Origin: Occultella glacieicola
GTDB lineage: Bacteria; Actinomycetota; Actinomycetes; Actinomycetales; Beutenbergiaceae
Length of the DNA: 64,000 nt
Direction of reading: 5' to 3'
Assembly: GCF_004353825.1 (NCBI RefSeq)
Contig: NZ_SMNA01000001.1
Location: 248,001 to 312,000 of the forward strand
Positions 29,052 to 53,150 of this stretch are shown one piece after another. Position numbers and translations under genes: made by a program. Positions within the stretch are counted from its first letter, which is position 1. Each line of letters begins with the position of its first letter. The notes under the pieces are model-generated. The model was not told the origin of the DNA and did no database searches. It saw nothing but the letters and a program-made list of their open reading frames with translations.

Positions 29052-30206
29052 ATGGAACGCACGGGCCGGGTCCAGATCTGGGCGGGCGTGAGCATGCTCG
29101 TGCTGTGTGTGCTCGTCGGCGTGGTCGAGGGAGCCACGGTCCTGTCGGCCGGGTCGTGGCTTCTTTTCGCAGGGTGGCTGGTGGCGTTCGGCACCTTTCT
29201 GGTGGGGGAGATCGTCCTCGCCGTCCGGCCCCTGCCGGCGACGGCCGGTGCGCGGCTGCTGCTCGTGGCGGTCCCGGTGCTCGCCAGCACCGCGGTCGTG
29301 CTGCTCTCCCCCAACCGGGGCGGCCTCAACCTCATCCTGCTGGTGCTCACCGCCGCCACCGCCGCGATCCATCTGGAACTGCGGGGCATCGCCACCGTCA
29401 TCGGGTGGAACTCCGCAGTCGTGCTCGCCCAGGGCGCTGCTCTGGGGCCCCTGGTGACCGAGCCCAACCGGCCGGTGGACCTCCTCCTCACGACGTTGCT
29501 CTACGCCGTGTTGCAGGCGGCCAGCGCCGCCATGATGTGGAGCCAGCGGCGTGTCGAGGAGGCACTCCAGGACCTCACCGTGGCCCATGTGGAACTGCGC
29601 AGCACGGGCGCGCTGCTGGCCGAGTCCAGCCAGGCCCAGGAGCGGTTGCGGATCTCCCGCGAACTGCACGACGTCCTCGGCCACCAGCTCACGGTGCTGT
29701 CCGTCGAGCTGGAGGTGGCCTCCCACCAGGTCGCCGGCCCGGGCCGCGAGCATGTCCTGCGGGGCCGGGCGATCACCCGCGAGGTGCTCGCCGACGTGCG
29801 GTCGGTGGTCGGGACCGAACGCCGCCGCCGCTTCGATCTCCCGGCCGCGCTGGCGGACGTGACCGAGGAGGTCCCGCACCCGCGGGTACATCTGACGATC
29901 GAACCCGGGCTCGTGGTGGACGACGAGCGGGCCGCCGTCATCGTGCGCGTCGTCCAGGAGGTCGCCACCAACACCATCCGTCACTCCCGGGCGGACAACC
30001 TGTGGATCGACCTCACCGCGGCCGACGGCACGGTCCGCCTCGACGCCCTCGACGACGGCCAGGGCGCGCCGCGCGTCGTCGCCGGGCACGGCCTGAACGG
30101 GCTTCGCGAACGCGTCGAGTCGCTCGGAGGGCGGGTCTCGCTCGACGGGTCTGCGGGCTTCCGGGTGCTCGCGGAGCTTCCGGCCCGCCGGCGGGTGCCG
30201 GCATGA
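29052..30206 (+). CDS. NarL-type sensor histidine kinase
   Basis: A 384-residue kinase. The N-terminal half holds about five to six hydrophobic segments with little extracellular sequence, as in intramembrane-sensing kinases. The phosphoacceptor region is RISRELHDVLGHQLTVLSVE (HisKA_3 type), and the HATPase part ends with GHGLNGLRERVESLGGRVSL. It probably senses an envelope-active compound and phosphorylates the response regulator whose start overlaps its stop (ATGA). The pair is divergent from the ABC exporter and DUF998 operon, the usual layout for an efflux module controlled by its own sensor. Confidence 0.9.
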   Translation: MERTGRVQIWAGVSMLVLCVLVGVVEGATVLSAGSWLLFAGWLVAFGTFLVGEIVLAVRPLPATAGARLLLVAVPVLASTAVVLLSPNRGGLNLILLVLTAATAAIHLELRGIATVIGWNSAVVLAQGAALGPLVTEPNRPVDLLLTTLLYAVLQAASAAMMWSQRRVEEALQDLTVAHVELRSTGALLAESSQAQERLRISRELHDVLGHQLTVLSVELEVASHQVAGPGREHVLRGRAITREVLADVRSVVGTERRRRFDLPAALADVTEEVPHPRVHLTIEPGLVVDDERAAVIVRVVQEVATNTIRHSRADNLWIDLTAADGTVRLDALDDGQGAPRVVAGHGLNGLRERVESLGGRVSLDGSAGFRVLAELPARRRVPA

Positions 30207-48956: not shown

Positions 48957-50492
48957 TCAGTGTTCGTGCCCGCCCGATCCACCTCCTGAGGACGCCCCCG
49001 CCGGTGGCTGCGCCACCTCACCCGGCGCGAGCACGACGAACTGCCCCATCAGCCCCTCGTCCTCGTGCCGGAGCAGGTGGCAGTGGTACATGTAGGGCAT
49101 CGCGGGGTCGCTGTAGTCCTCGAACCGCATCAGCAGCCGGTAGGTCCGTTGTGGCTCGGTGTAGACGGTGTCCTTGCGTCCGGCGAGCTCGGGCGGCGGG
49201 GCGTCGCCGTCGATGTCGAGCACCTCGAACTGCACGTCGTGCACGTGGAAGTTGTGCGGCGAGAGGTCCTGGTTGCGGACCTCCCAGATCTCGGTGGTGT
49301 CCACCTGCACGGACTCGTCGATCCGCCCCATGTCCATCCGCTGCCCGTTGATCTCCCGCCCCTGGAGCTGGAACGTCCGGGTGGTCGCGACGGCCGCGGC
49401 ATCGAGCCCGAACTCGGAGAACGCCCCGGCCGGCTCCGAGGACGGGGCGAGCGAGTCCGCGGCCCGCAGTCTCAGCACGTCGAACTCGTCGTTCCCGCCG
49501 ACCGCGAACGGCACGGCGACCCGCCCGAGTTCCGGCTTGAACGAGTGCAGCATCGCCTCGGTGCCCGGCTCCATCCGGACCAGGATCTCCGCGCGTTCGG
49601 CGGGCGAGAGCCGGATCCGATCGAGCTCGACGGGCGAGCGCAGCAGCCCGCCGTCGCTCGCCACGAGCGTGAACGAGCGGTCGGCGAAGCCGAACGAGTA
49701 CGTGCGCGCCGTCGAGCCGTTCAGGATCCGCAACCGGACGATCTCGGTGGTGACGTCGAGAACCGCCCCGATCGTCCCGTTCACCATGATCGTCGACCCG
49801 AGCAGCCCCACCTCGTTGCCGCCGTCGTCGATGGTGAGTTCGCCGTCGTCGAAGCTCTTGTCCTGCACGATCACCGGGATGTCGTCCACCCCGTACTCGT
49901 CCGGCAGGGCGGCGGCCTCGGTCTCGCCGTCGTCGATCAGGAACAGGCCGGCCAGGCCCTGGTAGACGTGCTGCTCGGTGGTGCCGTGCGGGTGCGGGTG
50001 GTACCAGAGCGTGGCGCCGGCCTGGTCGATCGTCCACTCCGGGCGCCAGGTCTGGCCGGGCTCGACGCTCTGGTGCGGCCCGCCGTCCATCGCGGCCGGC
50101 AGGTGCATGCCGTGCCAGTGCACGCTCGTGGTCTCCGGCAGGGAGTTCGTGACCTCGACGGCGACCCGCTCGCCGCGCTCGGCGCGCAGGGTGGGGCCGA
50201 GGAAGTCGCCGTTGAAGCCCCAGGTGGACGTGGTCGCGTCGTCGAGGAACCGGGACGTCCCGGCGCGCGCCTCGAGGGTGAACACACGGGTGCCGTCGGC
50301 GGCCACGCTGGACTCGGCCAACGGCGGGATCAGAAGCGGACGGTCGAACGCGTCCGGCTCGGTGACCGGGCTGACGCTCGCCCCGCACGCGGCCAGGCTC
50401 CCCGCGGCGACGACCGCCGGTGCCCCGGCGGCAAGCAGCAACAACGTCCGACGGCGCAGGCTCGCTCGGTCCGGTGTCCTCGCCCCGGTCAT
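48957..50492 (-). CDS. Multicopper oxidase, Tat-exported lipoprotein
   Basis: The 511-residue oxidase has all four copper-ligand motifs: HWHGMHLPAAMDGG and WYHPHPHGTTEQH in the first domain, HNFHVHDVQFEV and YHCHLLRHEDEGLMGQF at the C-terminus (type 1, 2 and 3 sites complete). The N-terminus combines a twin-arginine stretch (SLRRRTLLLLAAGAP) with a lipobox SLAAC (Cys 36), so it is probably folded first, exported by Tat and lipid-anchored. The tail ends in a Gly/Ser/His segment SGGGSGGHEH. It resembles CueO/bilirubin-oxidase-like enzymes that oxidise Cu(I) or phenols. The ATG overlaps the stop of a small membrane protein gene (ATGA), forming a two-gene operon. Confidence 0.9.
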   Translation of the reverse strand: MTGARTPDRASLRRRTLLLLAAGAPAVVAAGSLAACGASVSPVTEPDAFDRPLLIPPLAESSVAADGTRVFTLEARAGTSRFLDDATTSTWGFNGDFLGPTLRAERGERVAVEVTNSLPETTSVHWHGMHLPAAMDGGPHQSVEPGQTWRPEWTIDQAGATLWYHPHPHGTTEQHVYQGLAGLFLIDDGETEAAALPDEYGVDDIPVIVQDKSFDDGELTIDDGGNEVGLLGSTIMVNGTIGAVLDVTTEIVRLRILNGSTARTYSFGFADRSFTLVASDGGLLRSPVELDRIRLSPAERAEILVRMEPGTEAMLHSFKPELGRVAVPFAVGGNDEFDVLRLRAADSLAPSSEPAGAFSEFGLDAAAVATTRTFQLQGREINGQRMDMGRIDESVQVDTTEIWEVRNQDLSPHNFHVHDVQFEVLDIDGDAPPPELAGRKDTVYTEPQRTYRLLMRFEDYSDPAMPYMYHCHLLRHEDEGLMGQFVVLAPGEVAQPPAGASSGGGSGGHEH

Positions 50493-51184: not shown

Positions 51185-52342
51185 ATGCGAGCCGGCGAGG
51201 TGGACCCGAGGGTGCTCGACGCGCTCCTCGGCGTCGGCATCGCCATGAGCGTCGCGCTGTTGATCCTCGCCGACCCGGGCCGGGTCGATCCCGAGCCCGC
51301 ACCCGCGGTCGCGTACCTGTTCGCCGTCGGGTTCGGGCTGCTGATGGCGATCCGACGGCGGTTCTCGCGGCTGGTGCTGGTGCTCACCGTCGCGGGGGTG
51401 TTCGTGTACTACGCGCTCGGGTTCCCGCCGATCGGGATCGCGCTGCCCGGGGTCGCGGCGCTGTACTCCGCGTCGGAGCAGGGGCACCCCTGGTGGTCCG
51501 CCGCCTGGAGCGCCCTGCTCATCGGCGTCGCGGCCTACTTCCGGATCGCCGAGGGTCAGCCGACGGCGTACCTGCTCGGGTACGAGCTGCTCACCAATGT
51601 GGCGCTCGCCGCCGCCGCCATCGCCCTCGGGGTGAGCGTGCGGACCCGCAGGCGGGCTCGCGCCCAGGCCGAGCGGATCGCCGCCCTGACCAGTGCCGAG
51701 CAGCAGTATCTCGCCGACCAGCGGCTGCAGACCGAACGGGTCCAGATCGCCCGGGACGTCCACGACGTCGTCGGTCACACGCTGTCGGTGGTCGCCGTGC
51801 ACGCGAACGTCGCGGACGAGGCGATCGGGCACGACGACGAGGCCGCACACCACGCCGTCGCCCAGATCCGGGCGACGACCGCCGAGACCATGGGGGAGCT
51901 GCGGGCCACGGTCCGGCTGCTCCGCGACCCCGGCACCGTCGCCCCCGGCCTGGCCGGGCTGGCGCGGCTCACCGACCCCGCGCGCGAGGCCGGCCTCGAG
52001 GTCGGCACCGAGGTCGACGTCCCCGAGGGGGCACTCTCGGGGGCGATCGACGCCGCCGCCTACCGGATCGTCCAGGAGTCACTGACGAACGTGCTCCGGC
52101 ACGCGCGGGCGCACCGGGTCGAGATCTCGGCGGAGGTCGCCGACGGTCGCCTGCACCTCAGCGTGGTGGACGACGGGGTCGGTGCCGGACGGGATGCCGG
52201 GAGTGCCGCGGGCGCCGGAGGTCACGGCATCGCCGGGATGTCCGAGCGAGCCAACCTGCTCGGCGGCACCCTGACCGCGCGACCCCGGCAGGGCGGCGGC
52301 TTCGCGGTGCACGCGCATCTGCCGGCGAGGCTGGACAGATGA
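51185..52342 (+). CDS. NarL-type sensor histidine kinase
   Basis: A 385-residue kinase with about five to six membrane segments in the first 150 residues (for example LDALLGVGIAMSVALLILAD and LVLVLTVAGVFVYYALGFPP). A coiled linker QAERIAALTSAEQQYLADQR, phosphoacceptor region VQIARDVHDVVGHTLSVVAV and an HATPase domain with GGHGIAGMSERANLLGGTL follow. It is divergent from the multicopper oxidase operon. A 43-codon open frame overlaps its stop and leads directly into the response regulator gene. Confidence 0.9.
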   Translation: MRAGEVDPRVLDALLGVGIAMSVALLILADPGRVDPEPAPAVAYLFAVGFGLLMAIRRRFSRLVLVLTVAGVFVYYALGFPPIGIALPGVAALYSASEQGHPWWSAAWSALLIGVAAYFRIAEGQPTAYLLGYELLTNVALAAAAIALGVSVRTRRRARAQAERIAALTSAEQQYLADQRLQTERVQIARDVHDVVGHTLSVVAVHANVADEAIGHDDEAAHHAVAQIRATTAETMGELRATVRLLRDPGTVAPGLAGLARLTDPAREAGLEVGTEVDVPEGALSGAIDAAAYRIVQESLTNVLRHARAHRVEISAEVADGRLHLSVVDDGVGAGRDAGSAAGAGGHGIAGMSERANLLGGTLTARPRQGGGFAVHAHLPARLDR

Positions 52343-52470
52343 CGAACGCAGCCGCGCTCGGATCCACGACGACCGCGCCCGGACCGAACACGGTGGCGAC
52401 CGGGCTGACCGATGGTGCGCGCGACGACCGAGACCCGACCGATCACCGACCGATGAGGCACCCGCGATGA
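52339..52470 (+). CDS. Possible 43-residue protein bridging kinase and regulator genes
   Basis: An ATG at 52339 overlaps the kinase stop (ATGA). The frame ends in a TGA that overlaps the response regulator ATG at 52467 in the same way. The product would be a Thr/Asp/Pro-rich, disordered 43-residue peptide (MTNAAALGSTTTAPG... to HRPMRHPR) with no similarity I recognise. It may be a real small protein, or it may exist so that ribosomes cross the 124-nt gap and keep kinase and regulator coupled. Confidence 0.4.
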   Translation: MTNAAALGSTTTAPGPNTVATGLTDGARDDRDPTDHRPMRHPR

Positions 52471-53150
52471 CCCCGGACCCACCCGCCCCGATCCGCGTCG
52501 TCATGGCCGACGACTCCACCCTGGTCCGCGCGGGCCTGCTCGCGCTCGCCACCCATGAGGGGGACATCGAGGTCGTCGCCCAGGCCGGCACCGGCAGGGA
52601 GGCGATCGCTCAGGCGCGGCGGACCCACCCCGACGTCGTCCTGATGGATCTGCGGATGCCGGAGCTGGACGGGATCGAGGCGACCGCCGCCATCGGCGCC
52701 GACCCCGACCTCGCCGACGTCCGTGTGCTGGTGCTGACCACGTTCGACGAGGACTCCGACATCCTCGAGGCGATCCGTGCCGGAGCCAGCGGCTACCTGC
52801 TCAAGGACGTGGCGCCGTCGGACCTGCGGAACGCGATCCGCACGGTCGCCGCGGGGGAGGCGACGCTGTCGCCGGCCGTCGCCCGGACCCTGATGCGGCA
52901 GGTCGCGGATGCCCCGGTGCCGCGCACCGTCTCCGGCGTGCTCGACTCCCTCACCGAACGCGAGCGCGAGGTGCTCACGCTGATCGGCCGCGGCCGCTCC
53001 AACCAGGAGGTGGCGGCCGAGCTGTTCCTCAGCCCGGCCACCGCCCGCACCTACGCCAGCCGGCTGCTGAGCAAGCTGAACGCTCGCGACCGGGCCCAGC
53101 TCGTGGTGCTCGCCTACGAGTCCGGCCTGGTCAGCCCGGGTCGGGACTGA
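52467..53150 (+). CDS. NarL/LuxR-type response regulator
   Basis: The 227-residue regulator has a receiver domain (VVMADDSTLVRAGLLALATH, phosphoacceptor Asp in DVVLMDLRMPELDG, Lys in AGASGYLLKD) and a C-terminal LuxR helix-turn-helix (LTEREREVLTLIGRGRSNQE and LFLSPATARTYASRLLSKLN). It is the partner of the kinase upstream. Candidate targets are the divergent promoters between 51029 and 51184, that is the kinase itself and the multicopper oxidase operon. Confidence 0.92.
   Translation: MTPDPPAPIRVVMADDSTLVRAGLLALATHEGDIEVVAQAGTGREAIAQARRTHPDVVLMDLRMPELDGIEATAAIGADPDLADVRVLVLTTFDEDSDILEAIRAGASGYLLKDVAPSDLRNAIRTVAAGEATLSPAVARTLMRQVADAPVPRTVSGVLDSLTEREREVLTLIGRGRSNQEVAAELFLSPATARTYASRLLSKLNARDRAQLVVLAYESGLVSPGRD

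Follow-up and report, generated by a model that had tools for sequence, protein, structure and literature searches.

The window, that is, the whole 64,000-nt stretch of DNA analyzed here, encodes a sensor histidine kinase followed on the same strand by a NarL/LuxR-type response regulator, with a small open frame lying between the two (Table 1). The kinase end reads ATGA at 52339-52342, its stop codon TGA occupying 52340-52342, and the regulator start reads ATGA at 52467-52470, leaving the two genes separated by 124 nt. The ATG at 52467 was the sole in-frame ATG, GTG, or TTG upstream of the regulator domain. The original prediction that a small frame fills this gap and joins both neighbors by ATGA overlaps was borne out by the coordinates (52339-52470, plus strand, open over 43 codons). 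The 4-nt stop/start overlap thus occurs twice in series by way of the small frame, and a direct overlap between kinase and regulator is absent.

Table 1. Features at the kinase-regulator junction, in positions of the window
Feature	Positions	Strand	Evidence or remark
Sensor histidine kinase (HisKA_3 + HATPase_c), 385 aa	51185..52342	+	Pfam HisKA_3 7.4e-16, HATPase_c 6.2e-11
NarL/LuxR-type response regulator, 227 aa, from present start	52467..53150	+	Response_reg 1.7e-24, GerE 1.3e-17
Bridging frame, 43 codons	52339..52470	+	ATG is the ancestral response-regulator start; TGA overlaps the present one
Lineage-specific insert, ~122 nt	52345..52466	+	Absent from G001, G002, and G003; boundaries uncertain by a few bases
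GAGG, 8 nt before ancestral regulator start	52327..52330	+	Also in the three congeners
GAGG, 8 nt before present regulator start	52455..52458	+	Window sequence
Internal direct repeat copy 1, 25 nt	52367..52391	+	84% identical to copy 2, spacing 55
Internal direct repeat copy 2	52422..52446	+	84% identical to copy 1
11-nt tandem repeat, 2.6 copies	52425..52453	+	Inside the insert

The separation of kinase and regulator had also been called unusual, and it proved to be the sole gap among the 20 kinase-regulator pairs of the genome. A whole-genome search with HisKA_3 identified 25 kinases, of which 20 had a regulator directly downstream on the same strand; the overlap is NTGA in 18 pairs and 8 nt long in one (L165), which leaves the present locus as the one with a gap. 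For the other 5 of the 25 kinases, no regulator was found downstream within the stretch fetched. The three other HisKA_3 pairs inside the window (near 29640, 34656, and 55436) all had NTGA overlaps. Several response regulators (L170 of the same genome, L109, L137, and L142) carry an N-terminal stretch of ~19 to 30 residues behind the NTGA overlap, and the length of the N-terminal linker at NTGA-coupled regulator starts seems free to vary.

Relatives were compared through a protein search with the kinase (E <= 1e-60), with matches in 15 of 24 family genomes including that of the window. A direct ATGA overlap with no gap was found at every one of the 15 other loci, which come from 14 genomes and include an extra paralogue in G003. 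The second kinase copy of G003 (L198; G003:C15:198776-199924) was 52% identical and likewise had a regulator and an ATGA overlap. The three congeners, G001, G002, and G003, shared 83-85% identity in the kinase and 92-94% in the regulator, and in all three the alignment to the window is close as far as ATGACG and resumes at the new regulator start. The junction sequence was GAGGCTGGACCGATGACG in G001 and G003 and GAGGCTGGTCCGATGACG in G002; in the window it was GAGGCTGGACAGATGACG, then ~122 extra bases, then the regulator. Because the congener junctions align on either side of the insert, the first ATGA in the window is, as judged from these alignments, the old regulator start, and by the same comparison ~122 nt were inserted directly behind the ancestral ATGACG in the lineage of the window. 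A single insertion is far simpler than many deletions, since all the other compared genomes are without the gap. The insert was carried by one genome only among those compared. A wider set of 80 kinase loci, mostly distant, comprised 61 NTGA overlaps, 4 otherwise close junctions, 1 gap, 4 loci without an adjacent regulator, and 10 unclear cases. Among 30 loci, three more distant kinase-regulator pairs that are not close orthologues (L020, L022, and L024) had gaps of 80-120 nt; no ATGA-to-ATGA frame at the kinase stop bridged any of these three gaps.

The small frame had been proposed to encode an accessory protein of the two-component system, as its open frame, its start motif, and its location inside the operon might suggest. 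Its codon use was not gene-like: third-position G+C was 0.81 (versus 0.935 for the kinase and 0.952 for the regulator), a CAI-like score was 0.50 (versus 0.79 +- 0.09 for neighboring genes), and the log-likelihood per codon was -0.12 (versus 0.78 +- 0.23 for neighboring genes). The best Pfam hit, YadA_head at 18.7 bits, fell below the cut-off of 25 and is probably a low-complexity match, and NCBIfam yielded no match to the frame. When the small-frame protein was compared with the three congeners, the best match (E 0.008) was partial and lay within a longer frame. Spaced by 55 nt, a distance not divisible by three, the two copies of the internal repeat fall in different reading frames, a further argument against a peptide repeat. 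The original prediction had named as contrary evidence a frame broken in relatives whose flanking genes are intact; the relatives go further, the frame being missing altogether from each of the 14 other family genomes in which kinase and regulator are present. A functional accessory protein is therefore not supported and, in our judgment, extremely improbable; the small frame probably yields no useful protein.

The 124-nt gap is 73% G+C, similar to its neighbors, and the score of its 25-nt internal repeat was reached by 10 of 1000 dinucleotide shuffles. These internal repeats suggest that the insert may have grown by tandem duplication. The region's predicted RNA fold was no better than that of shuffles (z-score 0.03), no Rfam family matched at values up to E 1, searches for promoter- or terminator-like sites found none, and no relative was found among viral contigs. 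Matches to the insert at E <= 0.001 were absent from the three congeners; across the order they occurred in 48 of 297 genomes, its own included, all of the others being partial (the best covering 63 of 121 bases at 79%, E 2.7e-8, in one genome), and these were read as probably composition-driven.

Several candidate sources of the insert were rejected. A copy from elsewhere in the same genome was discarded, as no second copy was found there (the next-best match covered 25 nt, E 0.0135). An origin by tandem duplication of the junction itself was rejected too, for local alignments of the insert to its own flanks and to the three congener junctions scored about as shuffles did (92 of 500 reached the score in the best case), and a likeness to the kinase end noticed by eye was dropped. 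The 63-nt array of the neighboring oxidase gene in G001 gave scores reached by 447 of 1000 shuffles on the forward strand and by 31 of 1000 on the reverse strand. A leader-like match between the 3' end of the insert and the start of one gene on C18 of the same genome shared GACCGA-GAGG-ATGA and was taken as an ordinary leader.

Coupled junctions elsewhere in the genus were examined over 400 kb of G001, which held 42 gene-like NTGA junctions, and for 34 of these both partners could be placed together on the syntenic 400 kb of the window's genome. Exact overlap was kept at 28 of the 34, 4 were shifted by <=15 nt, and 2 by >40 nt, namely, the present junction and an ABC-type ATPase gene (120 nt, in frame). 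In the opposite direction, 35 of 46 junctions mapped (28 unchanged, 4 within 15 nt, one shifted by 21 nt, and two by >40 nt), and the two largest changes were at the same ABC-type ATPase gene and at a multicopper oxidase gene of G001. The ATPase gene, which was named by eye from its sequence, has a Pro/Ala-rich N-terminal extension of 120 nt in frame behind a GTGA overlap (window genome, G000 contig C11:357539; L215); the G001 gene lacks the extension, and its overlap reads ATGA. This extension was not similar to the insert (128 of 500 shuffles reached the score). The multicopper oxidase (CueO-like) gene of G001 (L238:1622-1853) has a 63-nt tandem array of 3.7 copies right behind its ATGA-coupled start, which adds 189 nt, or 63 residues in frame, at the N-terminus; its homologue in the window, starting at 50492 on the minus strand, is 189 nt shorter. 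These length changes at the ATPase and oxidase genes indicate that sequence growth right behind coupled starts occurs in the genus. The insert may have grown likewise, but these two changes, being in frame and at other genes, are analogies.

Such in-frame growth bears on one alternative origin, in which the insert began as an N-terminal linker of the regulator that a later small indel split off, the small frame being the detached linker. Regulator linkers behind NTGA do vary in length (30 residues at L170), the 120-nt extension at C11:357539 lies in frame behind GTGA, and the regulator frame is open through the entire insert. No forward frame of the insert had gene-like codon use, however, and no intermediate was found; we regard this origin as unlikely.

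The best explanation, and one in which we have high confidence, is an insertion in one lineage behind the old regulator start, with a frame that bridges by chance, a probably functionless peptide, and a presumed passive relay of ribosomes. The ancestor had kinase and regulator overlapping by ATGA, presumably translationally coupled. Low-complexity DNA of ~122 nt then arose or landed immediately behind the regulator's ATGACG, and since this length is not divisible by three, translation from the old start is out of frame with the regulator. The regulator start has moved to 52467, and the frame opening at the old start by chance runs to a TGA overlapping the new one. Ribosomes finishing the kinase would begin again at the old start, pass along the small frame as they translate it, and so reach the new start, and some might load directly at the regulator's own GAGG.

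That two such overlaps were unlikely to arise by chance, as originally argued, did not hold, since the first ATGA was inherited. Bridging then required only the right length class, the lack of a stop, and an A following the new ATG. Given two ATGA sites, the chance was 1/3 (length class) x 0.375 (no stop at the given composition) = 0.125, while a chain trained only on the insert gave 0.17; at 12-17%, the bridging pattern is mildly unlikely, not remarkable. The window contained 9 ATGA-to-ATGA frames of 20-100 codons, the small frame included, three of them nested at one stop. The presence of the frame in spite of these odds is a mild point for selection.

How the regulator is supplied with ribosomes depends on how far coupling reaches. 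In work on E. coli and Haloferax (PMC10666635), stop-start coupling drops to near zero at gaps of ~20-40 nt; a 124-nt gap should accordingly abolish coupling, unless the small frame is translated and re-initiation follows at its end. A translational relay via the small frame is possible and would fit the ancestral coupling, and the regulator's own GAGG may provide an alternative supply. Predicted anti-Shine-Dalgarno pairing was -7.4 kcal/mol at the upstream GAGG (52327-52330) and -5.6 kcal/mol at the downstream one (52455-52458), and because 19% and 37% of random positions reach these values, neither GAGG is strong evidence; a GAGG with a 5-10 nt spacer occurs at 4.65% of random positions. A combination of passive relay and direct loading appears most likely.

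A stronger version would have the relay selected: only insertions that keep stop-start coupling would be tolerated, and the frame and both of its overlaps would be maintained, whatever the peptide. The coupled overlap is indeed the rule, both in this genome (18 of 20 pairs, as NTGA) and at the 15 other orthologous or paralogous loci, and most of the mapped NTGA junctions (28 of 34) are unchanged between G001 and this genome; re-initiation is abolished by short gaps in other organisms (20-40 nt; PMC10666635), and a review (PMC12548453) describes short ribosome-delivering frames, with mycobacterial interspersed repetitive units (MIRUs) as one case. Yet the frame had a 12-17% chance of arising without selection, a GAGG 8 nt ahead of the regulator could serve it directly, and maintenance is judged on one genome only; we entertain a selected relay tentatively, at less than an even chance. 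Were the relay real, operons could absorb insertions at translationally coupled junctions with the balance of the partners kept, and the locus would offer a simple natural test system for serial re-initiation; were it not, the locus would be an example of a designed-looking small frame arising as a by-product of insertion.

Among known arrangements, termination-reinitiation coupling at ATGA shares its architecture with the ancestral junction and with 18 of the 20 pairs of this genome (as NTGA); here, in contrast, the direct overlap has been lost, and two overlaps stand in series instead. The small frame also resembles upstream open reading frames and bicistronic designs, as sketched in PMC12548453, in that it ends in ATGA at the downstream start and holds a GAGG inside, but it differs in lying between two operon genes and in being itself linked to the upstream gene, and its function is putative. 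Our literature search found no report of an insertion-born bridging frame at this kinase-regulator junction.

MIRUs were reportedly first described in the senX3-regX3 two-component operon, by Supply et al. in 1997. According to the 2025 review (PMC12548453), they appear to insert at start codons, with an internal frame coupled to the gene at a -4 spacing, and their insertion probably has minimal effect on expression; according to a second source (PMC4213456), they sit between senX3 and regX3 in units of 77 and 53 bp. The present locus is alike in three respects: an insertion between kinase and regulator at the start/stop overlap (here directly behind the ancestral ATGACG), an internal small frame that shares 4 nt with the downstream start, and the proposed role of maintaining ribosome supply to the downstream gene. 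It differs in that the insert is single-copy, with neither dispersed copies nor a multi-copy array of the whole unit, measures 122 nt versus 77 and 53 bp, and resides in a host that, judging by its named relatives, is a high-G+C actinobacterium but not a mycobacterium. Membership among MIRUs fails because dispersed copies are absent, while the architecture, compared by published description, is the same. A mobile repeat that spreads into ATGA junctions with a bridging frame would share the target (the ATGA of a two-component operon) and the internal frame with 4-nt overlaps given in that review (PMC12548453), but with no second copy in the genome, no match in the congeners, and no other insertion of this sequence at the 34 mapped junctions, we consider it very unlikely. 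It is conceivable, if doubtful, that this one-off insertion survived because its frame relays ribosomes between two ATGA overlaps; coupled genes would then tolerate an insertion that brings a bridging frame with it, and the locus would illustrate this MIRU principle outside the mycobacteria and without a repeat element.
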